From Draconibacterium orientale (GTDB taxonomy: Bacteria > Bacteroidota > Bacteroidia > Bacteroidales > Prolixibacteraceae): a DNA stretch of 64,000 nucleotides. Position 1 is the first letter of the stretch, and every line of letters begins with the position of its first letter. The position numbers and the translations under genes are program-made. Of this stretch, positions 29,746 through 60,513 are shown in pieces. The notes beneath the pieces are model-generated. The model saw only the letters and a program-made list of their open reading frames with translations. It made no database searches and had not been told where the DNA came from. The stretch spans positions 4,322,501 through 4,386,500 of the forward strand of contig NZ_CP007451.1 in assembly GCF_000626635.1 (NCBI RefSeq), read 5' to 3'.

Positions 29746-30927
29746 TCATTCGAAATAGTTTAAAGTTCGGTATCCGCCTTTTCTTAGGTATGCATCTTTC
29801 AGCATTAATTTAATGTCTGAATGTATCATTTCTGAGATGAGAGCCTTTAAATCGTATTCTGGTTTCCAGCCTAGTATATTTCTTGCCTTGGAAGCATCGC
29901 CAACCAGTAAATCAACTTCTGTTGGCCTGAAATAACTCGGATCAACAGAAATAACAGGAGTAAAATTATTGTTCATCCCCGAATTATTCTTCTTAATTCG
30001 ATCTTTAATATGGGAAAGATATTCAAGGCCAACCCGCGAAGTAAAAATCGTCTCATCTATATCCGAAATATATCCTTTTTCCTCAACACCTTTTCCTGTA
30101 AAAGTAATTTCCAGTCCAATTTCTTTGCCGGCCATGATTACAAAATCGCGTATTGATGTTGTAATTCCAGTGGCTATAACATAATCATCAGGTTTATCTT
30201 GTTGAAGAATGAGATGCATCGCTTTAATGTAATCTTTTGCATGGCCCCAATCTCGTTTTGCCGATAAATTTCCAAGGAAAATTGTCTCTTGCATACCGAG
30301 GGCTACACGTGCCATAGCCCGGGTGATTTTTCGGGTTACGAATGTTTCGCCCCGAATTGGCGATTCATGATTAAACAATATACCATTAGATGCGTGGAGC
30401 TTATATGCTTCGCGATAATTTACAGTAATCCAATAAGCATATAATTTTGCAATACCATATGGTGATCGTGGATAAAAGGGTGTTTTTTCTGTTTGTGGAA
30501 CTTCTTGAACAAGACCATATAATTCTGAGGTTGAAGCCTGGTAAATTTTTGTTTTTTCAACCAGGTTGAGTAATCGAATTGCCTCGAGAATACGCAAGGT
30601 GCCAACTCCATCGGCATTGGCGGTGTATTCTGGCGTATCGAAACTTACTTGTACATGACTCATTGCTGCCAGGTTGTATATTTCATCGGGCTGTACCTCT
30701 TGTATTATTCGAGTCAGGTTCAAGCTATCGGTTAAATCTCCATAATGTAAAATAAGGTTCCGGTTATCTAATTGCGGATCCTGATAAATATGATCAATAC
30801 GCTCGGTATTAAACATGGAGGCTCTTCGTTTGATACCATGTACGATATAACCTTTTTTTATAAGGTATTCAGCTAAATAGGCACCATCCTGACCTGTAAT
30901 TCCTGTAATAAGTGCTACTTTTTTCAT
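29746..30927 (-). CDS. gmd: GDP-mannose 4,6-dehydratase
   Basis: The 393-residue short-chain dehydrogenase/reductase begins [20 protein letters not shown], with the Rossmann GxxGxxG. It contains [16 protein letters not shown], the [10 protein letters not shown] active-site Y-x-x-x-K, and the Gmd hallmark [20 protein letters not shown]. It converts GDP-D-mannose to GDP-4-keto-6-deoxymannose, precursor of GDP-L-fucose, GDP-D-rhamnose or GDP-perosamine. The usual partner (fcl or rmd) is not in this window. It is the last gene of the minus-strand locus. Confidence 0.95.
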
Positions 30928-30945: not shown

Positions 30946-32961
30946 CTAATGATTTTTGTGTTGAATCGAGATTGGTTTGCGACCATTTTTCCTCATCGAT
31001 TTAACCGGGTGTAATTTCTTTTTGTTGTTGTAAATTTGATCAAACTTCATAAATACATCGGACTCTTTAGTTTTGTTGTAATATGAATTCATGGAAACAT
31101 ATTCAGGAATTATACGCATGAGTTCATCTACAATCTCTTGATGACTCATTGTTTCAATTGAATTTAACAATCCAATGATGGCATGATTCAAGTTGGCAAG
31201 ATCCTGGGTTCTGTCTTTTCCTATCATTATCTTGCTATTATGGGTATGTGAGAGTTTTTCTTCTTTGTCATCAAGCAACTCTTCGTAAAGTTTTTCACCC
31301 GGGCGTAATCCTGTAATTTTTATCTTGATGTCTTCATCAGGAACGAATCCTGAAAGAGAGATCATTTTTCTGGCCAGATCAATTATTTTAACAGGTTCAC
31401 CCATATCGAAAACAAATATCTCTCCACCTTTGCCAATAAATCCTGCTTCAAGTACCAGTTGGCAGGCTTCCGGAATTGTCATGAAATAACGTGTGATTTT
31501 TTCGTGGGTGATTGTTACCGGACCGCCTTTTTCAATCTGCTTTTTAAATAATGGCACAACCGATCCGTTTGATCCAAGAACGTTTCCGAACCGTGTAATA
31601 ATGAACTGAGTTTTAAATTTTACTGATTGCGCCAGTGCTTGAATATACATTTCACTCAAACGTTTGGTTGCTCCCATTACGTTTGTTGGATTAACGGCTT
31701 TGTCGGTTGAAATCAGTACGAATTTTTCAACACCGAATTCTGCAGAAAGATCAGCCATTAGTTTATTCCCTCCCACGTTAATATGAATTGCTTCGCTTGG
31801 GTATTTTTCCATTAAGGGAACATGTTTATAAGCAGCAGCACTAAATACAATTGTAGGAGAATACTCTTTAAAAATTCTGCGCATTTTAATTGCATTCGTT
31901 ACATCACCAACAATAACTTCAAAGTTTGTGTTGGGATAATTTGCAATTATTTCCTGTTGCAGATTATAAAGATCCGATTCTGCTTTATCTAATAAAATAA
32001 CTCTCCGAACCCCAAAACCAATAAGTTGGCGTACTATTTCTGAACCGATTGAACCGGCTGCCCCGGTTACCAGAACAACAGAATTTTTTAATCCATTTTT
32101 AATTTTTATTCGATCTAACTGAATGGAGTTTCGTCCTAATAAATCTTCAATTTTAATGGTATGAATTTCGTTTGCATGAAGTTTGCCATTAATCCATGAT
32201 TCCAAAGGAGGTACTTCTTTGATCAAAAGATGATGTTGTAAGAATTGATCGGTTATTTGTCTTTTTCTTTGATAGGATAATTCCGATTTTTCAATGGCAA
32301 AAATTATTTCTGTAACATTATTTTTCGGAATGATATGTTTTATCGCCTTATCTATAGAGTAAATTGGATAACCTGACAAAAACTTATTTTGAATGGATAC
32401 ATTCTCATCTATAAATCCAATTGCTTTTATTTGCATATTGTTGTTGGTGAGGGCATTGAGAGTTGTTTGACCAAGTTCTCCTGTACCAAAGATCAATACA
32501 TTTTCTGAATCCTTTTTATGAAGTATCCAGTGTTGGTAAAGTATTTTTGCAAACAAACGCGACATTACCATAGATGTGGTAACAAGAAGAACAAAAATTA
32601 CGATTACCGATAAGGGCATATTAAAAAAGGAAGATTCGTCTATTTTTCTTATGGTTAGCGATATAACCGCAAGAGAGGCTCCGGTGCATGGCACCGAGAA
32701 TATTATGTTCTTTATATCCTTGATCGTTGTATGACGAAGTATAACAGAATAGCAATTGGCTTTCCAGCAACACAAAATGAATAGGGGTAAAACAATGGAG
32801 AGATGCCACGGATTAATCGTTTGGTCAACAGCTACCAAATTGAAATTAAGCCTCAAAACAAAAGCTGTAAACCATGATAATGCCGCGATACCTACATCGA
32901 ACAAGAGAATTGCCCAACGGGGTAAATAATTACGAGTAAAGAAGCGTTTAAATGTTTTCAT
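30946..32961 (-). CDS. Membrane-bound nucleoside-diphosphate-sugar 4,6-dehydratase (CapD/FlaA1/WbpM type)
   Basis: The 671-residue protein has four N-terminal membrane helices (about 15-135) and a CoA-binding-like Rossmann region with FGTGELGQTTL. The catalytic SDR domain (about 290-600) contains VTGAAGSIGSEIVRQL and STDKAVNPTNVMGATKR. The catalytic Tyr is replaced by Met in the M-x-x-x-K form, as in WbpM and FlaA1. The family dehydrates UDP-GlcNAc to a 4-keto-6-deoxy sugar used for QuiNAc or FucNAc. Upstream of it in the operon lie a WecA-like transferase and an epimerase/reductase, the three parts of a WbpM-WbpV-WbpL-like initiating set. Confidence 0.92.
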   Translation of the reverse strand: MKTFKRFFTRNYLPRWAILLFDVGIAALSWFTAFVLRLNFNLVAVDQTINPWHLSIVLPLFILCCWKANCYSVILRHTTIKDIKNIIFSVPCTGASLAVISLTIRKIDESSFFNMPLSVIVIFVLLVTTSMVMSRLFAKILYQHWILHKKDSENVLIFGTGELGQTTLNALTNNNMQIKAIGFIDENVSIQNKFLSGYPIYSIDKAIKHIIPKNNVTEIIFAIEKSELSYQRKRQITDQFLQHHLLIKEVPPLESWINGKLHANEIHTIKIEDLLGRNSIQLDRIKIKNGLKNSVVLVTGAAGSIGSEIVRQLIGFGVRRVILLDKAESDLYNLQQEIIANYPNTNFEVIVGDVTNAIKMRRIFKEYSPTIVFSAAAYKHVPLMEKYPSEAIHINVGGNKLMADLSAEFGVEKFVLISTDKAVNPTNVMGATKRLSEMYIQALAQSVKFKTQFIITRFGNVLGSNGSVVPLFKKQIEKGGPVTITHEKITRYFMTIPEACQLVLEAGFIGKGGEIFVFDMGEPVKIIDLARKMISLSGFVPDEDIKIKITGLRPGEKLYEELLDDKEEKLSHTHNSKIMIGKDRTQDLANLNHAIIGLLNSIETMSHQEIVDELMRIIPEYVSMNSYYNKTKESDVFMKFDQIYNNKKKLHPVKSMRKNGRKPISIQHKNH

Positions 32962-42299: not shown

Positions 42300-43448
42300 T
42301 TAAGCAGTTAATAGTTTTACGTATTTTGTAACAGTAGATTCTACTGAAAATTTGCTAGCAGAATCGATTATGTTACTTTTCTTGAACATAACATCGTTGT
42401 TTGCCACTCTTAATAATGCCTTTGCAAATTCGATAATATTTTTGTGTTCAACCAAAATTCCGTTAACTTCCTGTACAATTATATCTTTCGGACCACTTGG
42501 ACAATCAAATGCAATAACGGGTGTTCCAAGTGAAATCGATTCCACCAGAACATTAGGAAATCCTTCAAAAAGAGAGGTTAAAACGGTTGCTTTTGCTCTT
42601 AAATAATACGATATAGTTGATGTCTGAAAACCTTCAAAGGATACTTGTAGTGTCAAACCTAATTCCTTTACTAAGGTTTTTAACTGGGGCTCTTCTTCCC
42701 CTTCTCCAACAATGGTCAAGTGCAGGTTGGAGTTAGTTCTTAATGCAATGGCGAAAGCCCGTAACAAATACGTAAGTCCTTTTTGAGCATTTAATCTTCC
42801 TACATACAGAAATTCATTTTCAAGCTTTTTTTGTTCATGATTGTCTTTAGTTATACTACCAATGGTTAAAGCCGGATTAAAAATTGTTTCAATTTTATTG
42901 CTGTCTATGTTAAATGATTTAACCAAATCTTCGCACATCCCTTTCGATTGTGCTACAATCTTATGACAGTCTTTTAGTGCAAGTTCTGTAAGTTTTGAGG
43001 TAATAAAGTTTCTTAATACGTTTCCCGAATTTTGAAAGAAATGCGAAAGTGTATTAATGTTTCTTACAATTACTTTTCTTTTTATAAAGAAGATTTTTTT
43101 GACCAGAAAAACCAATATTGCCAACTCAGTATGAAATACCAAAATGCTTTCGGGTTTTCTTTTCCAAATCGTTTTAAGTAAAGGGAAAAAGGCATTCCGC
43201 GTATGTTTTTTGTTTAGGTTGACAATTGGAACCTGTTTATTTAATTCCTTACTTAAAGATGTTTCCCGGTAATTGATTACCCAAAGTTCTACTTCAAAGT
43301 TTCTGCTGAATAATTCGTTACATAGAAGCGTACTTACCTTTTCAGCACCGCCATGCTCCAGGTTATAAACGAAAAGAGCAATTTTGTTTGATTCCACTTC
43401 TGACATTGATTGAATGTATTTGGCTTCTGAAATAGGATCACGATACAA
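42300..43448 (-). CDS. GT4-family glycosyltransferase 3
   Basis: The GT-B enzyme has 382 residues from the ATG at 43448, which overlaps the previous gene by 11 bp. An internal ATG at 43406 (MSEVESNKIALF) would start just before the first strand and is equally plausible. Motifs: ALFVYNLEHGGAEKVS, FLYVGRLNAQKGLTYLLRAF, and E-x7-E in EGFPNVLVESISLGTPVIAF. The LEHGGAEK loop is typical of GT4 enzymes of polysaccharide loci. Confidence 0.92.
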   Translation of the reverse strand: MYRDPISEAKYIQSMSEVESNKIALFVYNLEHGGAEKVSTLLCNELFSRNFEVELWVINYRETSLSKELNKQVPIVNLNKKHTRNAFFPLLKTIWKRKPESILVFHTELAILVFLVKKIFFIKRKVIVRNINTLSHFFQNSGNVLRNFITSKLTELALKDCHKIVAQSKGMCEDLVKSFNIDSNKIETIFNPALTIGSITKDNHEQKKLENEFLYVGRLNAQKGLTYLLRAFAIALRTNSNLHLTIVGEGEEEPQLKTLVKELGLTLQVSFEGFQTSTISYYLRAKATVLTSLFEGFPNVLVESISLGTPVIAFDCPSGPKDIIVQEVNGILVEHKNIIEFAKALLRVANNDVMFKKSNIIDSASKFSVESTVTKYVKLLTA

Positions 43449-44469
43449 ACTTGTGAACTTTTACCAGAGAATTCACAAAATCTTCGATCATAAATTTTTG
43501 CGGACTGACGCTTCCTTTATGCCAGTTTAGGTTCTGATCCCAGAAACCAGGAAATTGGTGCGACGTAAATGCGTAACTCAGTTCAATTATTTTATATTCT
43601 CCTTGATGACTAATAAAATCAAAAGCAACCGATTGTGCATTTAGTTTTTGGGCCGATTCAAATGCTATGCGAATGCATTCAGTATCGATTTTTGTGTAAT
43701 CATAATCTTTTAATCCACTACCAGAAGCTCTGAAATCGCCCTTTCTGCAGAATCTGCGAAGTCCAAAACATCTTGTTCCCACAATTACCAAACGAATATC
43801 AAATTCATTTTGAGGAATAAAATCCTGAAAATAGATATATCCTTTTTCTTTCTGTGAATATTTTTCTATTTCATTTTTAACGAAAATCCTGGCTACACCT
43901 GTGAGTAGTCTTTGAGCTGAGGTTAAATTTTTATCGCGACGAAACATCCAGATTCGTTCCTTTAACCGTGCAAATGGGTTGGTTTGTGAAAAACCTTGCC
44001 CAAAGGCTATGTTTATCATCCTTTCTGCCTCAGGCTTATCTTTCACTAGCCTGACATTTGAAGACCCGGCCCCATTTCTTAATTTAAAAACTTTTGGGAA
44101 TGTAGTTCTTGATAGCCAGTTATCAGCATCTTTTTTCGAAAAAAATACATAAGTATTAATGAGTGGTACTCCAATAGCTTCTAGTAAATATTTTTGTCCA
44201 ACTTTATCATCATAATGCCAACTGGTATCTACATCCGGAAAAACTTTAATATTTATTCTTTCCAACGATTGAGTTAATTGGCGAGCCATTAAATTTGATT
44301 TATAATCGGTTAAATCCCAGTGCCACATTAGGCCATCACAGTCTTTCAACTCTGAAATAATATTGGAGTTGTAACAATTAACTTCTTTGTAGTGAATGCC
44401 ATTCTCAATACAGTGTTCAATCCATATGTCACTAAAACTACCGGATCTGTCATGAATTGCTATTTGCAT
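43438..44469 (-). CDS. ATP-grasp family protein in the polysaccharide locus
   Basis: The 343-residue protein has the ATP-grasp fold of the RimK/carboxylate-amine ligase class. It contains FPKVFKLRNGAGSSNVRLVK (nucleotide-binding lysine and glycine-rich loop), IYFQDFIPQNEFDIRLVIVG, and metal-binding FDFISHQGEYKIIELSYAF. Such enzymes join a carboxylate to an amine. In this locus it may attach an amino acid or similar group to a sugar or to the polymer, which is inference. It overlaps both neighbours (10-11 bp), so it is tightly embedded in the glycosyltransferase run. Confidence 0.82.
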   Translation of the reverse strand: MQIAIHDRSGSFSDIWIEHCIENGIHYKEVNCYNSNIISELKDCDGLMWHWDLTDYKSNLMARQLTQSLERINIKVFPDVDTSWHYDDKVGQKYLLEAIGVPLINTYVFFSKKDADNWLSRTTFPKVFKLRNGAGSSNVRLVKDKPEAERMINIAFGQGFSQTNPFARLKERIWMFRRDKNLTSAQRLLTGVARIFVKNEIEKYSQKEKGYIYFQDFIPQNEFDIRLVIVGTRCFGLRRFCRKGDFRASGSGLKDYDYTKIDTECIRIAFESAQKLNAQSVAFDFISHQGEYKIIELSYAFTSHQFPGFWDQNLNWHKGSVSPQKFMIEDFVNSLVKVHKFVS

Positions 44470-51794: not shown

Positions 51795-52967
51795 CTATAA
51801 ACAAATTAGCTCAGGAAAAAGGTCCATTTCAGTTAACATTTTTTCTATTTCCGTTTTATAAACGGCATTCATTATAATAATGGTATCTGGTTTAAACAAA
51901 TGAAGAATTTTGGGATGTACGTACTGAATACCAATTCCCGGAATATAGTTACCTTGCATGTGAGGATTTATATCAACAACATGCTTAATTACTTTCATTT
52001 CATCAAAATGTGTCAAAAAACCTACTGACTTTGAACCACCGCCCCATAACGCAACTTTTTTGTTTTCATCTTTTAACTTTTGAAGTAACTTTTTGTAGCT
52101 GTTCAATTGATGATTTATTTTTATTGCAAACTCATTAACGTGTTTGCGGAGCTGCTCAATACTTTCTTCTATGGCGTGAATTTGCTGTGACGAATTTTGC
52201 GATACTCTTGCTTCGATAAACAAATATTGTTCCTCATATTCCTGATATAGATCCAGAACTTCGAACCCAGACGTTTTAAACAGGCGTGCCAGTGAACCCG
52301 GACTAAAATAGGAACAGTGTTCGTTGAAGATATCCCAAAAAGCCTGGACTTTTAAAATGCGAACGATGCTGGGAACTTCGAAAAATACAATTACTTCATT
52401 CTTTGCCTGTATGGATTGTTTTATCGTATCTAAAAAAGTTTTTGTATTGTGAATGTGTTCCAGTGTGTGCCTGCACACAATTACATCGTTAGGCAATTTG
52501 CCATGTTCGCTTGAATAGAATTCTTTTACGAATGAAACATTCGGATTTGGTTTTAATCGGCCATTAACATAGGCCGGATCAATTCCAATACCTCTGTTGT
52601 TGCCTAATTCACAAATCAGGTTTAAAAAATCGCCTTTGCCACAACCTACTTCCACAACATCTTTATTCCGAACATTGTATTTATTAATAAACCGGTTGGT
52701 AATTTCGGTAATAAACTTCTTAAATGTTGGCGAATAACCTTGCTGGTCTTCATATCCTTTTGTGTAGTAATCAATACTGGTGTCAAAAGAGCTGTTGTAA
52801 ATAAAACCACATGAATTACAAAAAGCCAGTGTAATATCCATCCGAGGAATTGATATTGCTTCTTCGTATGATTTTACAGTAACCACACTTTGAACAGGTG
52901 CGTTTTTTACCCGAAAGAATTCTTCTGTTTTATGGCTGTTACAAGAAGGGCAGTGTAAATGCTTCAT
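51795..52967 (-). CDS. SAM-dependent C-methyltransferase-like protein, second copy
   Basis: The 390-residue protein has an N-terminal zinc-binding pair (CPSCNS and CNSCGFIY), then a class I SAM domain with DVVEVGCGKGDFLNLI and VCRHTLEHIHNTK. A C-terminal domain with KVALWGGGSKSVGFLTHF follows, similar to the nucleotide-sugar C-methyltransferase C-domain. This three-part layout is that of sugar C-methyltransferases such as TylC3. It differs clearly from the other copy at 55250-56545, so both probably act on different substrates or steps. Confidence 0.82.
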   Translation of the reverse strand: MKHLHCPSCNSHKTEEFFRVKNAPVQSVVTVKSYEEAISIPRMDITLAFCNSCGFIYNSSFDTSIDYYTKGYEDQQGYSPTFKKFITEITNRFINKYNVRNKDVVEVGCGKGDFLNLICELGNNRGIGIDPAYVNGRLKPNPNVSFVKEFYSSEHGKLPNDVIVCRHTLEHIHNTKTFLDTIKQSIQAKNEVIVFFEVPSIVRILKVQAFWDIFNEHCSYFSPGSLARLFKTSGFEVLDLYQEYEEQYLFIEARVSQNSSQQIHAIEESIEQLRKHVNEFAIKINHQLNSYKKLLQKLKDENKKVALWGGGSKSVGFLTHFDEMKVIKHVVDINPHMQGNYIPGIGIQYVHPKILHLFKPDTIIIMNAVYKTEIEKMLTEMDLFPELICL

Positions 52968-52990
52968 TGTGTTGTTTTATAAAGAAATTT

Positions 52991-53599
52991 CTACCATAGT
53001 TCCCCATTTATTTCAATAATATTAGGTTGATATTTGTTATTCTTACTCTTTAACATGACGCAATATTCAACTAATTCTGTTCTGATATTATCCTTGTAAT
53101 AAAACAGTTGGCTTTTTGATCTATACCAACCAAGCTTGCGGTAATAATGTACTAGTTGTTCCCCGCAAATAAATAATCCACACTCTACATTTAGTTGGTT
53201 AAAAAGATGGTTGTCAACATATTTGAATGTTTTTTTTGCAATTCCAAAGCCTCTGTAAGATGGCAAGGTTAAAAGCCCTCCAGTTCCTCCTACAATAACT
53301 GGTTTGGAATCAAACAGTGCACTTGTTTTAATAATATATCTGATGCTGATAATTTTATTCCTTAGATAGGCAATCGCAATCAAGTGCGGGGTGTGCCACT
53401 CCTGATCAGAACTTAATGTGCGATTGAATACTTTTTTGAATATATTGTCAATTGCCGATAATGTTGTTTTATCTAGTTGGTTGTAGAGCTCAATTTTTAT
53501 CGTTATTCTATTTCTTATAGGTGTTTTTGCATTTTGTTTTTGTAAATAGTATTTCCTTATTTTACGTAATATTTGTTTTGATTTGATAACTAACGTCAT
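52991..53599 (-). CDS. GNAT-family N-acetyltransferase
   Basis: The 202-residue protein has a GNAT core with the acetyl-CoA loop in LLTLPSYRGFGIAKKTFKYV and a later VHYYRKLGWYRSKSQLFYY. It begins 24 bp before the downstream methyltransferase gene. In sugar loci GNAT enzymes acylate amino sugars. Presence next to a PIG-L deacetylase suggests exchange of the N-acyl group, which is inference. Confidence 0.82.
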   Translation of the reverse strand: MTLVIKSKQILRKIRKYYLQKQNAKTPIRNRITIKIELYNQLDKTTLSAIDNIFKKVFNRTLSSDQEWHTPHLIAIAYLRNKIISIRYIIKTSALFDSKPVIVGGTGGLLTLPSYRGFGIAKKTFKYVDNHLFNQLNVECGLFICGEQLVHYYRKLGWYRSKSQLFYYKDNIRTELVEYCVMLKSKNNKYQPNIIEINGELW

Positions 53600-53734
53600 A
53601 TTTTGCTCTTATTTATAGTGTTCTTTTATTAAGCAGATATCTTGGAGACAGTAATGAAAAGAAGTGATTCTCTGCCAATCATCAAGTTAACAAGTGCCGG
53701 TTTTAAGCTCAAATGTATAGTTGAATATTGTCGC

Positions 53735-54376
53735 TTAAATCACCAACTTTCTAACATAAAATGCTTCTGCAAATCTTGATGTTGATTCTATTCCTCTTAG
53801 GCGGGGGAGTGCGTTAAAAGTTGCCTCATCAAACCAATGTTTATTTTGCTGAGAAATAAAGCTTTCCAAGATTATCTTGTTCCTTTTGTGTATAATTTCT
53901 TCTTGGAGTGGAACGTAAAAATTAGGGATTCCCAAATCACCATCGTATTTTGGTATTTCATACTCTAGTATCATATGATTTCGCCAGGTATTCCAGGTTA
54001 AATCGCTTATTAAACGATGATCCTGATGCCTGTCTTTTCTATAATGTGTGAATATCAGGTCGGGGTCAATATCCTTTTTTAGTTCCTCAAAATATTCCTT
54101 TATTTTCACAAATTCGGTTTTAAGAAAACCATCTCGAAATGTATTTATTGAAACCTTATTGTTAGGGATATCTTCTACAAACCTATGAGCACTTATAAGA
54201 GCTTCTTGCTTTCTTATTTTGTTAGATGCGAAAACTATCCAACTAAGGTGGCTAACTTCATTTTCTTGAATTATCTTAAGTAGGGTACCACCTGCTCCTA
54301 TCTCAATATCATCGCAATGTGCCCCTAAACAAAGGATTTTTAATGGAGTATCGTTCTGAAATTTAAAGGACAACAT
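53735..54376 (-). CDS. PIG-L/LmbE-family deacetylase
   Basis: The 213-residue protein has the zinc-binding A-H-C-D-D motif in ILCLGAHCDDIEIGAGGTLL and the second metal motif in THYRKDRHQDHRLISDL. The family removes N-acetyl groups from GlcNAc-type sugars. It lies 18 bp after the second nucleotidyltransferase gene, so it probably shares its pathway. Confidence 0.9.
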   Translation of the reverse strand: MLSFKFQNDTPLKILCLGAHCDDIEIGAGGTLLKIIQENEVSHLSWIVFASNKIRKQEALISAHRFVEDIPNNKVSINTFRDGFLKTEFVKIKEYFEELKKDIDPDLIFTHYRKDRHQDHRLISDLTWNTWRNHMILEYEIPKYDGDLGIPNFYVPLQEEIIHKRNKIILESFISQQNKHWFDEATFNALPRLRGIESTSRFAEAFYVRKLVI

Positions 54377-54394
54377 ATTTCGTAAATCTTTTAA

Positions 54395-55204
54395 TTAATT
54401 TAGTTTTTTCTTTTCCTGATTTTCAAAGCGTGTCCAAACTTCCCAGGGAGGATTCCCCTGTGCATAAATGTCATCCAGATTCTTTTTATCTTTAAACGTG
54501 TCCATGCTAGCCCAGTAACCGTTATGTTCCCATGAAATGAGTTTGTTTTCTTTAATCAAGCGACTGAATGGTTGATCCACCAATTCATCACCTTGCTCCA
54601 TGTAGTCAAAAATCTCTTTGCGAAGAATGAAATAACCGGTATTAATATGCAATCCGGCCGATCCAATATGGCTAATTTTCTTTACAGTTCCATCATTTTT
54701 ACGTTGTACGACATGGAAACTTTGTGTTGGTTGGTAGGCCATAATAGCAGCAGTTTTGCTTTTATCATTTAGAAACCAGTCTAGCATATCAGGTAGGTGG
54801 AGGTCTGTTAATCCATCACTATAATTAGCCAAAAATAAATCTTCATCTTTAAGGTATTCTTTCACTTTCAATAGTCGCATACCTATGTTTGAGTTTAAAC
54901 CGGTATCAACAAAGGTTATTCGCCAATCGTCTATATCCGAATTTAGAAGCTCGATTTCACTGCCTCCTTTGGTATAGACAAAATTATTCGATAGTGTTTC
55001 GTTGTAATTAATGAAATAGTTTTTTATGTAATCGCCCTTATATCCGAGGCAAAGAATAAAATCTTTGTGTCCGTAACTGGCGTAGTATTTCATTACATTC
55101 CAAAGAATTGGACGATAACCAATTGTTACCATTGGTTTGGGAATCTGTTCCGAATATTCTCGGAGTCGGATTCCTTGTCCACCGCAAAATAAAACTACTT
55201 TCAT
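54395..55204 (-). CDS. RfbF-like sugar nucleotidyltransferase, second copy
   Basis: The 269-residue protein starts MKVVLFCGGQGIRLREYSEQ, with the nucleotide-binding G-G-x-G-x-R-L. It then has PKPMVTIGYRPILWNVMKYY, YGHKDFILCLGYKGDYIKNY and NGYWASMDTFKDKKNLD. It is homologous to the first copy at 59010-59822 but clearly diverged. The family makes CDP-glucose or related NDP-sugars from sugar-1-phosphates. Having two in one locus implies two activated sugars, or one copy with altered specificity. Confidence 0.88.
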   Translation of the reverse strand: MKVVLFCGGQGIRLREYSEQIPKPMVTIGYRPILWNVMKYYASYGHKDFILCLGYKGDYIKNYFINYNETLSNNFVYTKGGSEIELLNSDIDDWRITFVDTGLNSNIGMRLLKVKEYLKDEDLFLANYSDGLTDLHLPDMLDWFLNDKSKTAAIMAYQPTQSFHVVQRKNDGTVKKISHIGSAGLHINTGYFILRKEIFDYMEQGDELVDQPFSRLIKENKLISWEHNGYWASMDTFKDKKNLDDIYAQGNPPWEVWTRFENQEKKKLN

Positions 55205-55249
55205 AGGGAAAAATGAGGATGAGTTTGTTGTGCTGCTTAAGATAAATGA

Positions 55250-56545
55250 TTAACCGATTTCTTCTACGCAGTAATGATTCTTTTCTGCATAGGCGTGATC
55301 GATAACAGTTAGCCGGGGAATTGGAACAACAAATTTTCCGCCCCAGTCGAATACATATTTATGGTGACTGATAATTTCCTTTTTTAAGTTCCAGGGAAGT
55401 ATAAAAACATAGTCAGGTTTAGTAGATTTCAGCATTTCAGGATGATAAACCGGAATGTGAGAACCGGGCAGGAAGGTATCTTGTTTATGTGGGCTTCTGT
55501 CAACTGTATAGTCCAAAAAATCAGATCGGATACCACAATAATTTAAAAGTGTGTTTCCTTTGCCGGGTGCTCCATAACCGGCTATGTGTTTCCCTTCATT
55601 TTTTGCCTGAATCAGAAAGGCCAAAATGTTGCGCTTGGTTTCTTTTACTTTTTCGTTAAACGAATCGTAATATTGCAGGTTATTCATACCTGCCTTGTGT
55701 TCAGTCTCCATTAGGTCGAATACGCTTTGTTGGATGCTCCTTTTCGTGTCATTTTTATGATGTGCATATATCCGTATTGAACCGCCATGTGTTGTAAGTT
55801 CTTCAACATCGAACAATTCAAGATCGTGTTTTGAAAATATTTTCTGAACAACGGTAAATGCAAGATAGGAGAAATGTTCATGATAAATTGTATCAAATTG
55901 GTTCTCGGCCACAAGTCGCATCAGGTGCGGAAATTCCATTGTAATAACGCCTTCGTCTTTTAGAAATATCTTCATTCCCTCAACAAAATCATTAATGTCG
56001 GGGACATGTGCCAATACGTTATTTCCTATTATTAAATCTGATTTTCCGTATTTTTCAACCAGCTCTTTTGCGGTATTAACACCAAAAAACTTTTTTTCCG
56101 TTCTGATATTCTTTTCATTAATGGCATAGTCGGCAACCCCTTCTGATGGCTCAACCCCAAGAACCGGAATTCCTTTTTCAACAAAATATTGTAACAGATA
56201 TCCATCGTTACTGGCAATTTCGGTAACCAAACTATTTGAGGTTATTTTAAATTGTTTCATCGCATGGTTAACATACCTTTTTGCATGGTTGAGCCATGTG
56301 TCGGAAAATGATGAATAGTACCCATAATCGCGATAAATCTGTTCGGGCGAAGCACTTTCTGGTACCTGGGTTAGATAGCAATTTTCACAAATATAAACCT
56401 TCAAAGGGAAATGTGGTTCCATTTTGTTCAGGTCTTCAGGTTTTATTCTATCCTGGCAGAGTGGTTGCATTCCAAGGTCGGTAACTTCATGCGTTAACGA
56501 AGATTTGCAGAAATTACATTTGTTAAAAGCTGTTTTTGATTTCAT
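55250..56545 (-). CDS. NDP-sugar C-methyltransferase
   Basis: The 431-residue protein has the complete three-domain layout of sugar C-methyltransferases. The N-terminal zinc site has CNFCKSSLTHE and ICENCYLTQV. The SAM domain has LVTEIASNDGYLLQYF and NNVLAHVPDINDF, then MEFPHLMRLVAENQFDTIYH. The C-terminal domain has HIAGYGAPGKGNTLLNYCGI. The family adds a methyl group to a carbon next to a keto group, making branched sugars. A keto-sugar substrate is therefore expected, yet no soluble 4,6-dehydratase is encoded nearby. Confidence 0.92.
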   Translation of the reverse strand: MKSKTAFNKCNFCKSSLTHEVTDLGMQPLCQDRIKPEDLNKMEPHFPLKVYICENCYLTQVPESASPEQIYRDYGYYSSFSDTWLNHAKRYVNHAMKQFKITSNSLVTEIASNDGYLLQYFVEKGIPVLGVEPSEGVADYAINEKNIRTEKKFFGVNTAKELVEKYGKSDLIIGNNVLAHVPDINDFVEGMKIFLKDEGVITMEFPHLMRLVAENQFDTIYHEHFSYLAFTVVQKIFSKHDLELFDVEELTTHGGSIRIYAHHKNDTKRSIQQSVFDLMETEHKAGMNNLQYYDSFNEKVKETKRNILAFLIQAKNEGKHIAGYGAPGKGNTLLNYCGIRSDFLDYTVDRSPHKQDTFLPGSHIPVYHPEMLKSTKPDYVFILPWNLKKEIISHHKYVFDWGGKFVVPIPRLTVIDHAYAEKNHYCVEEIG

Positions 56546-56587
56546 AATGTGCTGTTCGTGTGTATTTATATTTTGGCGAAAATTTGA

Positions 56588-57790
56588 TTAAGTCAGTTTG
56601 CTCATTGCCCTTTGGGCTATTGTTTCTCCTATTGCTAGCGAAGCTGTGGCTGCCGGAGATGGTGCGTTTAAGACATTAAGGATATGCTTGTTTTCAGAAA
56701 TCAGAAAATCGTCAATCAGCTTTCCGTTACGATCGCATGCCTGCGCTCTTACTCCGGCGCCTCCCGTTTTTATGTCATCATATTGAATCTCAGGCACCAG
56801 CTTTTGCAGTGCTTTAACCAGGGCAGCTTTATTGTACGATCGGTAGTATTCTCCTAATCCCATTCTCCAGTATTGGCGCATTACTTTCCTGAATCCAGGC
56901 CATGCGAGTGACTCTAAAAATTCAGTACATTTAAATGAGTATTTCGTGTAACCTTCTCGTTTAAATGCCCATACAGCATTGGGGCCGGCTTCAATACCAC
57001 CATGTATCATCCGTGTAAAATGAACACCCAAAAATGGAAAATTCGGATCGGGGACAGGGTATATGAGGTTTTTCACCAGGTGACTTTTCGCTTCGGTTAG
57101 TTGGTGATATTCTCCTCTGAATGGAATGATTCGTACATTTAGTTCCGATTCAGACAAGGCCGCAATTTTATCGCAATACAAGCCTGCTGTATTAATTAGA
57201 ATTCGGCACGTATATGTATTCTGATTTGTTTCGATGGTAACACCATTATTAATCAAACCGATTTTTTCAACTTTGGTGTTCAGCTTTATGTGCCCACCAA
57301 ACCTTTCGGTAAAAATTTCAGCATATTTATTGCTCAAATCGCCATAATCAATTATCCCGGTGTATGGCACATGTATGGCAGCTATTCCCGAGGCATGTGG
57401 TTCGTAAGCTTTAATTTCTTCCCGGTGCACTTTTCTCATCCGAACCAATCCGTTTTGAATACCTCTTTCCCAAAGATCCTCAAGCCGCGGCAATTCATCT
57501 TCGCGGGTAGCAACTATTAACTTTCCGCACAAATCATATTTGATGTTTTCGTTCTCGCAAAAATCGATTAGTTTTTGATAACCTTTCCGGCAATTAATGG
57601 CTTTCAGACTACCCGGTTTATAATAAACTCCTGCATGTATAACTCCGCTGTTATTACCGGTTTGGTGCAGGGCAACTTTGGCCTCTTTTTCAAGAACTGT
57701 AATCTTTTTTGAAGGATTGTTTTCCGCTAGATACAAGGCGGTTGCAAGTCCAACAATTCCCCCTCCAATTATAATTATATCTTGTTTCAT
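56588..57790 (-). CDS. lhgO: LhgO-like FAD-dependent oxidoreductase (L-2-hydroxyglutarate oxidase family)
   Basis: The 400-residue protein begins DIIIIGGGIVGLATALYLAE (FAD-binding G-x-G-x-x-G). It contains HQTGNNSGVIHAGVYYKPGS, the hallmark of the L-2-hydroxyglutarate oxidase family, and ends with GAGVRAQACDRNGKLIDDFL and PSPAATASLAIGE. The family oxidises L-2-hydroxyglutarate at the membrane with FAD. Its presence in a polysaccharide locus between an SDR gene (10-bp gap) and a C-methyltransferase gene suggests a sugar-related substrate, but this is only inference from position. Confidence 0.9.
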   Translation of the reverse strand: MKQDIIIIGGGIVGLATALYLAENNPSKKITVLEKEAKVALHQTGNNSGVIHAGVYYKPGSLKAINCRKGYQKLIDFCENENIKYDLCGKLIVATREDELPRLEDLWERGIQNGLVRMRKVHREEIKAYEPHASGIAAIHVPYTGIIDYGDLSNKYAEIFTERFGGHIKLNTKVEKIGLINNGVTIETNQNTYTCRILINTAGLYCDKIAALSESELNVRIIPFRGEYHQLTEAKSHLVKNLIYPVPDPNFPFLGVHFTRMIHGGIEAGPNAVWAFKREGYTKYSFKCTEFLESLAWPGFRKVMRQYWRMGLGEYYRSYNKAALVKALQKLVPEIQYDDIKTGGAGVRAQACDRNGKLIDDFLISENKHILNVLNAPSPAATASLAIGETIAQRAMSKLT

Positions 57791-57800
57791 GGATTACGGA

Positions 57801-58847
57801 TTACCAGTTCCAGCTCAAGTTATCATCAAGAGTTTTTGCTTCAAGTAGCTGGTTAATTACGTTTAATCGCATAAGTGAAGATGACCTGAAATTGGCGTCA
57901 TTAAATCCCATGTTTGTTAATTGGTCATACAGGTTTTGTATGCTGGGTTTTAGGCTATAGATGGGTTGATGATTAGGAGCCAGTTTTTTGAACAGATCGA
58001 AATTAACTTTGTATGAACGCTTGTCAGGAGGTGCATCTGCATTGACTGATACTTTACAACCGGGAACAACCTCTGCAACAACTTCGGCGAGTTCTTTTAC
58101 CTGGTAGTTCCATTCATTACTGCCGGTGTTAACAGCCAGGAAGTTACCACCTTGTTCCGGTTTTCGCGTAACCGACCAATCAATTGCCCTGGCCATATCG
58201 AACACGTTAATCAGAGGTCGCCAGGGAGTTCCGTCGCTTAAAATGTCGATTTTTTTAGAGGTAACTGCACCGGCTACAAAATCGTTTACTACCAAATCAA
58301 GACGTAGCCGGTTGCTGGCCCCACATGCTGTAGCAAAGCGATGGCAGGTTACTGTAAAATTTTTATCAGCTATGGTTTCCAGATCTTTTTCTGCAGCAAT
58401 TTTTGATCGGGCATAAGCTGTAAGTGGGTTTAAGGTATCGGTCTCAATTTTTGCAGCATCGTCTGCTGCGCCGTAAACACTGCAACTCGAGGCAAAAATA
58501 AACGCACGAACACCTTTGGCTTTTGCTGCTTTTGCAAGCTCAATGGTTGCTTTGTAATTAATATCCATGGTTATTTGTTCAAATTTGTTTCCCATGGGGT
58601 CGTTTGAAATGGCGGCCAGGTAAATAACGGCATCAACATTATTAAGAATTTCCGTGTCGAAATTTCTAACATCGCCAAAAATCTGTTCATTGAGTTTGGT
58701 TTCGGGTAAAATGGCCGAATTTGTCAGATGTCTTGCAAAAAAACCAGTGTCGAAACCAATTAACCTGGAGTTTGGATGGGTTTTTCGAAGTTGACTAACA
58801 ACTCCCGGACCAACATAGCCCATATTGCCGGTTATTAATATTTTCAT
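57801..58847 (-). CDS. NAD-dependent epimerase/dehydratase (extended SDR)
   Basis: The 348-residue extended SDR begins MKILITGNMGYVGPGVVSQL with GxxGxxG. It has ASSCSVYGAADDA, YARSKIAAEKDLE as the Y-x-x-x-K active site, then TPWRPLINVFDMARAI and the substrate-binding C-terminal part. It probably epimerises, reduces or dehydrates an NDP-sugar delivered by the adjacent RfbF-type enzyme. Which of these it does cannot be decided from the sequence; a dehydratase would complete the CDP-sugar path. Confidence 0.87.
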   Translation of the reverse strand: MKILITGNMGYVGPGVVSQLRKTHPNSRLIGFDTGFFARHLTNSAILPETKLNEQIFGDVRNFDTEILNNVDAVIYLAAISNDPMGNKFEQITMDINYKATIELAKAAKAKGVRAFIFASSCSVYGAADDAAKIETDTLNPLTAYARSKIAAEKDLETIADKNFTVTCHRFATACGASNRLRLDLVVNDFVAGAVTSKKIDILSDGTPWRPLINVFDMARAIDWSVTRKPEQGGNFLAVNTGSNEWNYQVKELAEVVAEVVPGCKVSVNADAPPDKRSYKVNFDLFKKLAPNHQPIYSLKPSIQNLYDQLTNMGFNDANFRSSSLMRLNVINQLLEAKTLDDNLSWNW

Positions 58848-59009
58848 ACTATTTAAAATTGTTGGTTTTTAAAGGTGTAGTGCGGAACTTGCATTTGTTT
58901 TAATCATATTTTTAGATGTCGAAATATTACAAGTTCGTTTATCGATTAGATTATTATTGATTTTACAGAAACAGATTGTGCGTTAAGAGTGATGAAGTAA
59001 CCTTTGACC

Positions 59010-59822
59010 TCATGGCCTGATTGTTTTTTGATATTTATCGGTCGGAATCTTGTTCCAGATCATCCATGGGGCATTGTCAGCTTCTATTAGTCTTTCCAGG
59101 TGTCGTTTGTCGCGAGCAGTGTCCATCGGAACCCAGAAATTTTCATGTTTATAAGTAACTAATTCTTTATCAAAAGCCAGGTTTTCCAACGGAGCTCTTT
59201 CAAAAACAGTAGAGTCTCCTTCTATGTAGTTTAGCACTTCTGGTTCGCAAACAAAAAAACCACCATTTATCCATTGCCCGTCTCCACTTAATTTTTCCTG
59301 GAATTTCGTTACTTCATTTTTCTCGTTTATTACTAACGACCCCCATCTTCCTTCTGGTTGAACCGATGTCATTGTAATAAGTTTATTGTTGTAGGTATGA
59401 TATTCCAACAATTTCTGGATATTGATATTAGCAACTCCGTCACCATAGGTGAGCATAAAACGTTCGTTATTAATGTATTTTGCAACCCTTTTAATTCGTC
59501 CACCAGTCATGGTGTTAAGGCCCGTATCAATCAAGGTAACTTTCCAGGGTTCCGATTGATTGTTCAGAATTTTCATTTCGTTCGATTCCATATCGAAGGT
59601 AATGTCGGACTGGTGCATGTAGTAATTGGCAAAATATTCTTTAATAACATATCCTTTATAGCCAAGAAGAATAATGAAGTCATTAAATCCGTAGTGGGAG
59701 TAGATTTTCATTATGTGCCATAGGATGGGTTTGCCACCTATTTCAACCATTGGTTTAGGTTTAATATCTGTTTCTTCGGATAGGCGGGAACCTAATCCTC
59801 CTGCAAGTATAAGTACTTTCAT
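59010..59822 (-). CDS. rfbF: Glucose-1-phosphate cytidylyltransferase
   Basis: The 270-residue protein matches RfbF along its length: KVLILAGGLGSRLSEETDIK, PKPMVEIGGKPILWHIMKIY, YGFNDFIILLGYKGYVIKEY, LIDTGLNTMTGGRIKRVAKY and MLTYGDGVANINI, ending ENFWVPMDTARDKRHLE. It makes CDP-glucose from CTP and glucose-1-phosphate, entry point of CDP-deoxy-sugar pathways. It is the first biosynthetic gene after UpxY (100-bp gap). The next expected enzyme, CDP-glucose 4,6-dehydratase, is not recognised in the window. Confidence 0.94.
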   Translation of the reverse strand: MKVLILAGGLGSRLSEETDIKPKPMVEIGGKPILWHIMKIYSHYGFNDFIILLGYKGYVIKEYFANYYMHQSDITFDMESNEMKILNNQSEPWKVTLIDTGLNTMTGGRIKRVAKYINNERFMLTYGDGVANINIQKLLEYHTYNNKLITMTSVQPEGRWGSLVINEKNEVTKFQEKLSGDGQWINGGFFVCEPEVLNYIEGDSTVFERAPLENLAFDKELVTYKHENFWVPMDTARDKRHLERLIEADNAPWMIWNKIPTDKYQKTIRP

Positions 59823-59922: not shown

Positions 59923-60513
59923 TTAGAATCTTACTGATGTTTTTGCGATACTTTTTTGGGGGAGGGTTCGCTTTTTTAACTCGTCAGATTGTTTTTCGGG
60001 CTTAAGTATTTTTATTTCATCTTTCGAGATGTTGGCATGTAAGCAGTACCCCATCATGGGAATACGAATTAGAATTCGGAATTTTCCGTTGAATTTGACG
60101 ATCTCTCCACGAACTCCTTTTAGTGCACCATATAAAACCTCTGCTTTTGTGCCTGGCGCAATGTTTTCTTTTGTTATGGCAATTTTTGTTTTGTCTTGTT
60201 CAACAAAAATTTTAATGTCTTCAATTTGTTTTTCTGGAATTGCTTGTGCTTTTCCTCCAAAACTTACGTAGCGAATTACTCCCGGAATACTAAGAACATT
60301 AAAAAATTCTTTATAACTCACTTTAACAAAAACATAGCTTTTAAACAAAGGCGCTTCAATCCATTTTTTTCTGTCGCTCCATATTCGTAATGATTCTTGT
60401 AGTGGGAGATAACAAGTTAAATTTTGCTCTTTTAAATTTTCCAGAATTTTTCTCTCTCTATTCGGTTTGGTATAAATAGCATACCAAAAATACGATGGTT
60501 CTTCCAGCTTCAT
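59923..60513 (-). CDS. upxY: UpxY-family transcription antiterminator (NusG paralogue)
   Basis: The 196-residue protein has a NusG N-terminal domain (FWYAIYTKPNRERKILENLK, IEAPLFKSYVFVKV) and a C-terminal KOW-like region (APGTKAEVLYGALKGVRGEI). Bacteroidota use one such paralogue per surface-polysaccharide operon to prevent premature termination in the operon leader. Position at the head of a 31-kb single-strand locus fits exactly. No UpxZ inhibitor gene follows it. Confidence 0.93.
   Translation of the reverse strand: MKLEEPSYFWYAIYTKPNRERKILENLKEQNLTCYLPLQESLRIWSDRKKWIEAPLFKSYVFVKVSYKEFFNVLSIPGVIRYVSFGGKAQAIPEKQIEDIKIFVEQDKTKIAITKENIAPGTKAEVLYGALKGVRGEIVKFNGKFRILIRIPMMGYCLHANISKDEIKILKPEKQSDELKKRTLPQKSIAKTSVRF

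Follow-up and report, generated by a model that had tools for sequence, protein, structure and literature searches.

We propose that a cassette of eight genes (positions 51795-59822) in a stretch of 64,000 nucleotides from Draconibacterium orientale (the window; contig NZ_CP007451.1, positions 4,322,501 to 4,386,500) makes a C-branched cytidine diphosphate (CDP) sugar by oxidation without dehydration, with a short-chain dehydrogenase/reductase (SDR) and an L-2-hydroxyglutarate oxidase (LhgO) working as a redox pair. We give this reading a probability of about 0.6. The initial annotation of the window had located the eight genes and their order exactly; all lie on the minus strand in one tight run with gaps of 10-162 bp, and 10 bp separate the SDR gene from the LhgO gene (Table 1). 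It had also reported that rfbG, the gene for the usual CDP-glucose 4,6-dehydratase, is missing, and this holds for the whole genome (5,132,075 bases, one contig), in which no match to the RfbG family TIGR02622 exceeds the cut-off (best 113 versus 278 bits). A separate rfbG elsewhere in the genome was rejected on this ground, and the cassette SDR is not among the ten TIGR02622 matches of the genome. The keto group required by the C-methyltransferases had been ascribed to either the SDR or the flavoenzyme; most likely, it comes from the SDR.

In the proposed route, RfbF1 would make CDP-glucose, as expected from its family. The SDR would then use its tightly bound NAD+ to oxidise a ring hydroxyl, most likely at C4, and the resulting CDP-4-keto-glucose would retain the 6-hydroxyl. 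Kinship with Cj1427, the GDP-D-glycero-D-manno-heptose 4-dehydrogenase of Campylobacter jejuni, suggests that the SDR passes the hydride to alpha-ketoglutarate and releases L-2-hydroxyglutarate. LhgO, to judge from its residues and gene context, would oxidise this product back to alpha-ketoglutarate and, by way of FAD, pass the electrons on to the membrane, which would pull the sugar oxidation forward and let alpha-ketoglutarate act catalytically. The first C-methyltransferase (CMT1) is predicted to add a methyl group next to the ketone, at C3 to judge from its family. The methylated product would probably be reduced later by a further enzyme; the cassette itself holds no ketoreductase. The gene content, the residues and the genomic associations were observed; the substrate of the SDR, the oxidised carbon, the cofactor cycle and the methylation site are inferred.

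The dehydrogenase, the flavoenzyme and the methyltransferase

Among PDB sequences, the profile of the SDR family matched Cj1427 best (108 bits, the next sequence 77.6 bits); in a phmmer search with the single SDR sequence, MoeE5 and Cj1427 were level (74.3 and 73.4 bits). The stretch RFATACGASNRLRLDLVVNDF of the SDR corresponds to a 21-residue stretch of Cj1427, and a 38-residue query around RLRLDLVVNDF returned Cj1427 as the sole PDB match up to E 10. The stretches RxRLDLxVNDF and PDKRxY are common to both proteins. With an AlphaFold model of the SDR (pLDDT 89.4, pTM 0.91), Cj1427 was the top match by VIA Z (32.6), with Pal and GalE types within 1 of it, and Foldseek placed MoeE5 first and Cj1427 next by E-value. 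Because other SDRs tie in this way, the fold search was dropped as proof of the kinship. Nucleoside diphosphate-sugar 4,6-dehydratases carry an (S/T)xDExYG motif with an Asp-Glu pair. The SDR, aligned with 37 relatives, has the motifs SSCSVYG (residues 120-126) and YARSK, and lacks the Asp-Glu pair; a Cys-Ser pair stands at its position in 38 of the 38 aligned members. Cj1427 oxidises its nucleotide sugar at C4 without dehydration to a 4-keto product, and binds NADH so tightly that turnover needs re-oxidation by alpha-ketoglutarate, which yields L-2-hydroxyglutarate (PMC10680097).

The flavoenzyme appears to be a genuine L-2-hydroxyglutarate oxidase, because it scores above the curated cut-off of its family, keeps six contacts to 2-oxoglutarate (2-OG) and is nested among other LhgO of Bacteroidota in a tree. 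These sequence hallmarks run counter to the earlier suggestion that it oxidises a sugar hydroxyl. The contacts in Drosophila L2HGDH are S88, H92, Y289, L299, H302 and R393, and the glycerophosphate oxidase mpGlpO retains the S, H, Y and R of them (PMC10726252). All six are kept in the window LhgO (S48, H52, Y244, L254, H257 and R348) and in 36 of 36 LhgO-type open reading frames (ORFs) of the fetched SDR loci, a set that includes 5 repeat records and three ORFs lying 4.0-6.5 kb from the SDR. We named three types of the enzyme: LhgO, LhgO2 and LhgO3. LhgO2 shares about 34% identity with the window LhgO, and a scanned example scores 320 bits, above the NF008726 cut-off. LhgO3 shares about 31%; an example stays below that cut-off at 263 bits, and the motifs of LhgO3 resemble PDB 3dme. 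The tree held 29 cassette copies and 38 other LhgO-type sequences; it leaves out frames L154 and L159, and the LhgO genes of L073 and L076, which are separated from the SDR by 4.2 and 6.5 kb, are not labelled as cassette copies. The cassette copies form four groups, namely Bacteroidota (including the window), Methylococcales-like, LhgO2 and LhgO3, between which, as deep groups, the program flags long branches. At least three changes of the cassette label are forced by this tree, and these could be one gain and two losses.

The genome has one match to the LhgO family, the cassette copy. In Escherichia coli, L-2-hydroxyglutarate is produced by the glutarate hydroxylase CsiD (PMC6265302). CsiD was rejected as the source here, the genome having no match to PF08943, and therefore its LhgO needs another source of L-2-hydroxyglutarate. 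The initial annotation had held that an rfbG elsewhere, together with L-2-hydroxyglutarate activity of the oxidase, would speak against an unusual route; no such rfbG was found, and the other half was ill-posed, because this activity is what the better-supported mechanism predicts. A comparison of the ORFs in loci L045-L140 with 15 reference proteins flagged no fusion, and a candidate fusion of LhgO with a neighbouring gene, the 682-residue frame of L135, was discarded as an open-ended frame without a second reference family.

CMT1 has both domains of a sugar C-methyltransferase over their cut-offs, the Zn-binding N-terminal PF08421 and the C-terminal Methyltransf_14 PF08484. In the PDB it matches the D-mycarose 3-C-methyltransferase 4rv9 with 290 bits.

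Co-occurrence of the genes and alternative sources of the keto group

In the family of the host, Prolixibacteraceae, the SDR was found in 17 of 140 genomes and LhgO over the cut-off in 19. Nine of these LhgO genes score more than 500 bits; all of them are in SDR genomes, at most 0.7 kb away from the SDR, and no LhgO above 500 bits occurs in the 123 SDR-negative genomes. The remaining ten (300-333 bits) are all in SDR-negative genomes, where they form an LhgO2-like subgroup (L035-L044), and their surrounding DNA contains no match to rfbF, C-methyltransferase or RmlC. LhgO over the cut-off was not found in 8 of the 17 SDR genomes.

Across species genomes, 223 SDR loci were confirmed by scanning, of which the best 80 were counted, with neighbours taken on the same strand within 3 kb of the SDR; records L061-L066 duplicate the family loci L046, L047, L049, L048, L051 and L052, respectively. 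The loci span Bacteroidota, Nitrospirota, Planctomycetota, Verrucomicrobiota, Pseudomonadota and others. Near the SDR we found rfbF in 63 of the 80, an RmlC-type epimerase in 68, a C-methyltransferase in 50, a DUF4910/DUF2172 protein in 36 and PIG-L in 11. An RfbG-like ORF occurred in 0 of the 80 (best 84 bits, 24% identity). Because no RfbG-like ORF is present, while rfbF, RmlC and C-methyltransferase lie near the SDR in most loci, the SDR occupies the place of RfbG. In 25 of the 80 loci the SDR has an LhgO-type gene as a neighbour (LhgO 8, LhgO2 12, LhgO3 5); some contigs are short, and 3 kb are available on both sides in 58 loci, 20 of which have the gene.

As a control, 40 of 54 rfbG places from the phylum were examined up to about 8 kb on each side, some contigs again being short. 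All 40 have rfbF, 14 have RmlC, 6 a C-methyltransferase and 2 a DRL-type protein, and 0 of the 40 has an LhgO-type gene. When the coordinates of the 54 rfbG genes were compared with 44 of the listed LhgO places, including those of all 18 genomes that have both genes, no listed LhgO lay within 40 kb of an rfbG (nearest 42.9 kb). The Fisher values of 5.6e-10, 3.3e-7 (coordinate comparison) and 1.8e-5 (locus counts) overstate independence because the genomes are related.

Two results weigh against the proposed pairing: 55 of the 80 SDR loci are without an LhgO-type gene within 3 kb, and 18 of 50 searched genomes show no LhgO at 1e-30. These 50 belong to the loci (52 of 80) whose fetched DNA has no LhgO-type gene; in 28 of them LhgO over the cut-off is found elsewhere, and 4 have a weaker match. 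In this searched set, LhgO was found elsewhere in all 17 genomes of Nitrospira/Nitrospiraceae, each SDR-positive, and was not found in 4 of 5 Pontibacter genomes or in the Prolixibacteraceae genome of L065. In a panel of 395 genomes of the phylum, the SDR is present in five, namely that of the window, G292 (locus order rfbF-LhgO2-SDR-RmlC-DRL) and three others, which have no LhgO at 1e-80. Because many SDR loci and genomes show none, LhgO is not obligatory; it helps or is replaceable.

These absences lend weight to another explanation. The SDR might catalyse a redox-neutral reaction, for example as a 4-epimerase, or might be a dehydrogenase whose NAD exchanges freely, and LhgO might be a repair enzyme with a housekeeping role that accompanies the cassette by chance. 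LhgO is indeed common in the phylum (151 of the 395 genomes), and the fold fits epimerases of the GalE and Pal types about as well as Cj1427. However, the sequence profile, like the RLRLDLxVNDF stretch, points to Cj1427, the LhgO and SDR genes are 10 bp apart, three LhgO types stand beside the SDR in different phyla, and the rfbG loci have none. A redox-neutral SDR would also leave the keto-requiring methyltransferase without a keto sugar, and we consider this explanation unlikely, though deserving of serious attention.

The keto sugar might also be supplied by Gmd or by the UDP-GlcNAc-dehydratase-like enzyme, with the methyltransferases acting on those products, since both genes belong to the same polysaccharide region, some 19-27 kb away from those of the cassette. 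This appears improbable, because it is the SDR that has a methyltransferase and rfbF nearby in most of the counted loci, and a cluster which by eye we take to be Gmd-like was found in 8 of 88 loci within 7 kb. Oxidation of the nucleotide-sugar hydroxyl by the flavoenzyme itself is more improbable still: its gene lies in a sugar operon and the substrates of the DAO superfamily are varied, but the six 2-OG contacts are kept, the score is far above the equivalog cut-off, the protein branches next to LhgO of Bacteroidota, and many loci have the SDR and a methyltransferase without LhgO. We rejected this candidate on residues and tree. A 3-C-methyltransferase requires a neighbouring 4-keto group, and WbpB, a 3-dehydrogenase, is of a different fold family from the SDR. 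Least credible is an SDR that uses alpha-ketoglutarate and oxidises C3 as WbpB does, for WbpB likewise uses 2-ketoglutarate but makes the D isomer (PMC8651671), and the nearest solved relative of the SDR acts at C4 (PMC10680097).

Other genes recur beside the SDR. The DRL-type protein (e.g. L072:9706-11028) accompanies it in 18 of the 80 loci, all of them lacking a C-methyltransferase; locus L216, outside the 80, has both. Its domain PF21135 is the catalytic domain of a DXR-like oxidoreductase, and the protein may act on the same CDP-keto sugar, either branching it or contracting it. A DUF4910/DUF2172/HTH_47 protein also recurs (e.g. L122:10909-12231), as does a PhyH-type, dioxygenase-like match (L128:12299-13282), whose cluster is in 12 of 88 loci, mostly of Nitrospira.

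The second module and the surrounding genes

The initial annotation took the doubled nucleotidyltransferase and methyltransferase as a sign of two unusual sugars, and the cassette does look like two merged modules, each of which is found without the other in relatives. RfbF1, SDR, LhgO and CMT1 occur without RfbF2, PIG-L and CMT2 in L052, and the SDR occurs with RfbF2, PIG-L and CMT2, without RfbF1, LhgO and CMT1, in L058 and L060. RfbF2 is 35% identical to RfbF1 and has the GGxGxRL...PKPM motif; it lies directly upstream of PIG-L in 22 of the 24 loci with PIG-L (4 repeat records). CMT2 is 22% identical to CMT1 over 365 columns. RfbF2, PIG-L and CMT2 make up a separable module, which probably contributes a second sugar to the same polysaccharide. 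Because the modules occur apart, two sugars, or two activation routes sharing one SDR, are supported.

Homologues of the antiterminator at the head of the run are present in 14 of 16 related family loci, and a homologue of the GNAT-like protein in 1 of the 16 (L056). Just downstream of the cassette and inside the polysaccharide region is a protein with a secretion-system C-terminal sorting domain (PF18962; 50125-51642). The region also encodes a RimK-like ATP-grasp protein (43438-44469), perhaps an amide-forming decoration enzyme.

Table 1. Genes of the cassette and related genes of the window
Feature	Position	Strand	Evidence or remark
UpxY/RfaH-type transcription antiterminator	59923..60513	-	NF033644 156 bits, cut-off 100; heads the run
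RfbF1, glucose-1-phosphate cytidylyltransferase (CDP-glucose synthesis)	59010..59822	-	TIGR02623 402 bits, cut-off 300
SDR, proposed CDP-hexose 4-dehydrogenase reducing alpha-ketoglutarate to L-2-hydroxyglutarate	57801..58847	-	Best PDB match of family profile: Cj1427
LhgO, L-2-hydroxyglutarate oxidase (FAD), proposed recycler to alpha-ketoglutarate	56588..57790	-	NF008726 535 bits, curated cut-off 299
CMT1, sugar C-methyltransferase, TylC3/TcaB9 family	55250..56545	-	PF08421 and PF08484
RfbF2, second RfbF-type nucleotidyltransferase	54395..55204	-	TIGR02623 212 bits, under cut-off 300
PIG-L family deacetylase, part of RfbF2 module	53735..54376	-	PF02585 50 bits, cut-off 28
GNAT-like acetyltransferase, accessory	52991..53599	-	PF13508 E 8.7e-4, sub-threshold; weakest assignment
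CMT2, second C-methyltransferase-like protein	51795..52967	-	PF13489 and PF08484
UDP-GlcNAc-dehydratase-like enzyme	30946-32961		Same polysaccharide region as cassette
Gmd, GDP-mannose 4,6-dehydratase	29746..30927	-	TIGR01472 567 bits, cut-off 415; same polysaccharide region

Significance and comparison with known systems

Beyond the window, we hold the chances to be evenly balanced for a widespread route in which Cj1427-like SDRs oxidise CDP-hexoses to 4-keto sugars at the expense of alpha-ketoglutarate and without dehydration, and in which an L-2-hydroxyglutarate oxidase dedicated to this task, perhaps recruited on several occasions, couples the sugar oxidation to the respiratory chain, with branching by a C-methyltransferase or by the DRL-type reductoisomerase-like enzyme. 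If this is true, bacterial LhgO gains a biosynthetic role next to glutarate breakdown, and the ability of an SDR to act as a net oxidase in cells, although its NADH is trapped, is explained. It would also provide a route to CDP-sugars retaining the 6-hydroxyl, with loci in the five phyla named above. In the open-licence literature searched, no case was found of an alpha-ketoglutarate-linked dehydrogenase for CDP-sugars being paired with an L-2-hydroxyglutarate oxidase of its own. Because each enzyme type is already known, the system is not categorically new.

The LhgO of the cassette resembles known LhgO and L2HGDH in its family score and six ligand residues and differs in its setting. A published analysis of lhgO neighbourhoods gives csiD, gab genes or lhgR as neighbours, and the words sugar and polysaccharide are absent from its main text (PMC8206213), whereas the cassette LhgO stands among sugar genes.

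Recycling of 2-hydroxyglutarate is also served by WbpB and D-2-hydroxyglutarate dehydrogenase (D2HGDH), which are of other enzyme families than the SDR and LhgO. In the lipopolysaccharide synthesis of Pseudomonas aeruginosa, the tightly bound NADH of WbpB is oxidised by 2-ketoglutarate in a reaction coupled to D2HGDH, so that such recycling has a precedent in surface-sugar synthesis; that pair uses the D isomer, however, and D2HGDH is also coupled to serine synthesis (PMC8651671).

Cj1427 is the closest parallel to the SDR, being its best PDB relative by profile and likewise part of a surface-sugar pathway. In that pathway a C3/C5-epimerase follows (PMC10680097), and most of the counted loci have a gene for an RmlC-type epimerase close to the SDR, though the window cassette does not. 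However, Cj1427 acts on a GDP-heptose, whereas the cassette SDR, at about 26% identity, is expected to act on a CDP-sugar, and the usual partner of the SDR here is a C-methyltransferase or a DRL-type enzyme. The available part of PMC10680097 names no dedicated L-2-hydroxyglutarate oxidase for Cj1427, whereas the cassette has LhgO.

With the RfbF-RfbG (DdhA-DdhB) pathways, the cassette shares a cytidylyltransferase and a C-methyltransferase in consecutive genes, as in Sinorhizobium meliloti, where ddhA, ddhB and a 3-C-methyltransferase gene follow one another (PMC4053727). RfbG dehydrates CDP-glucose to a 6-deoxy sugar, whereas in a cassette without RfbG the 6-hydroxyl should be kept.

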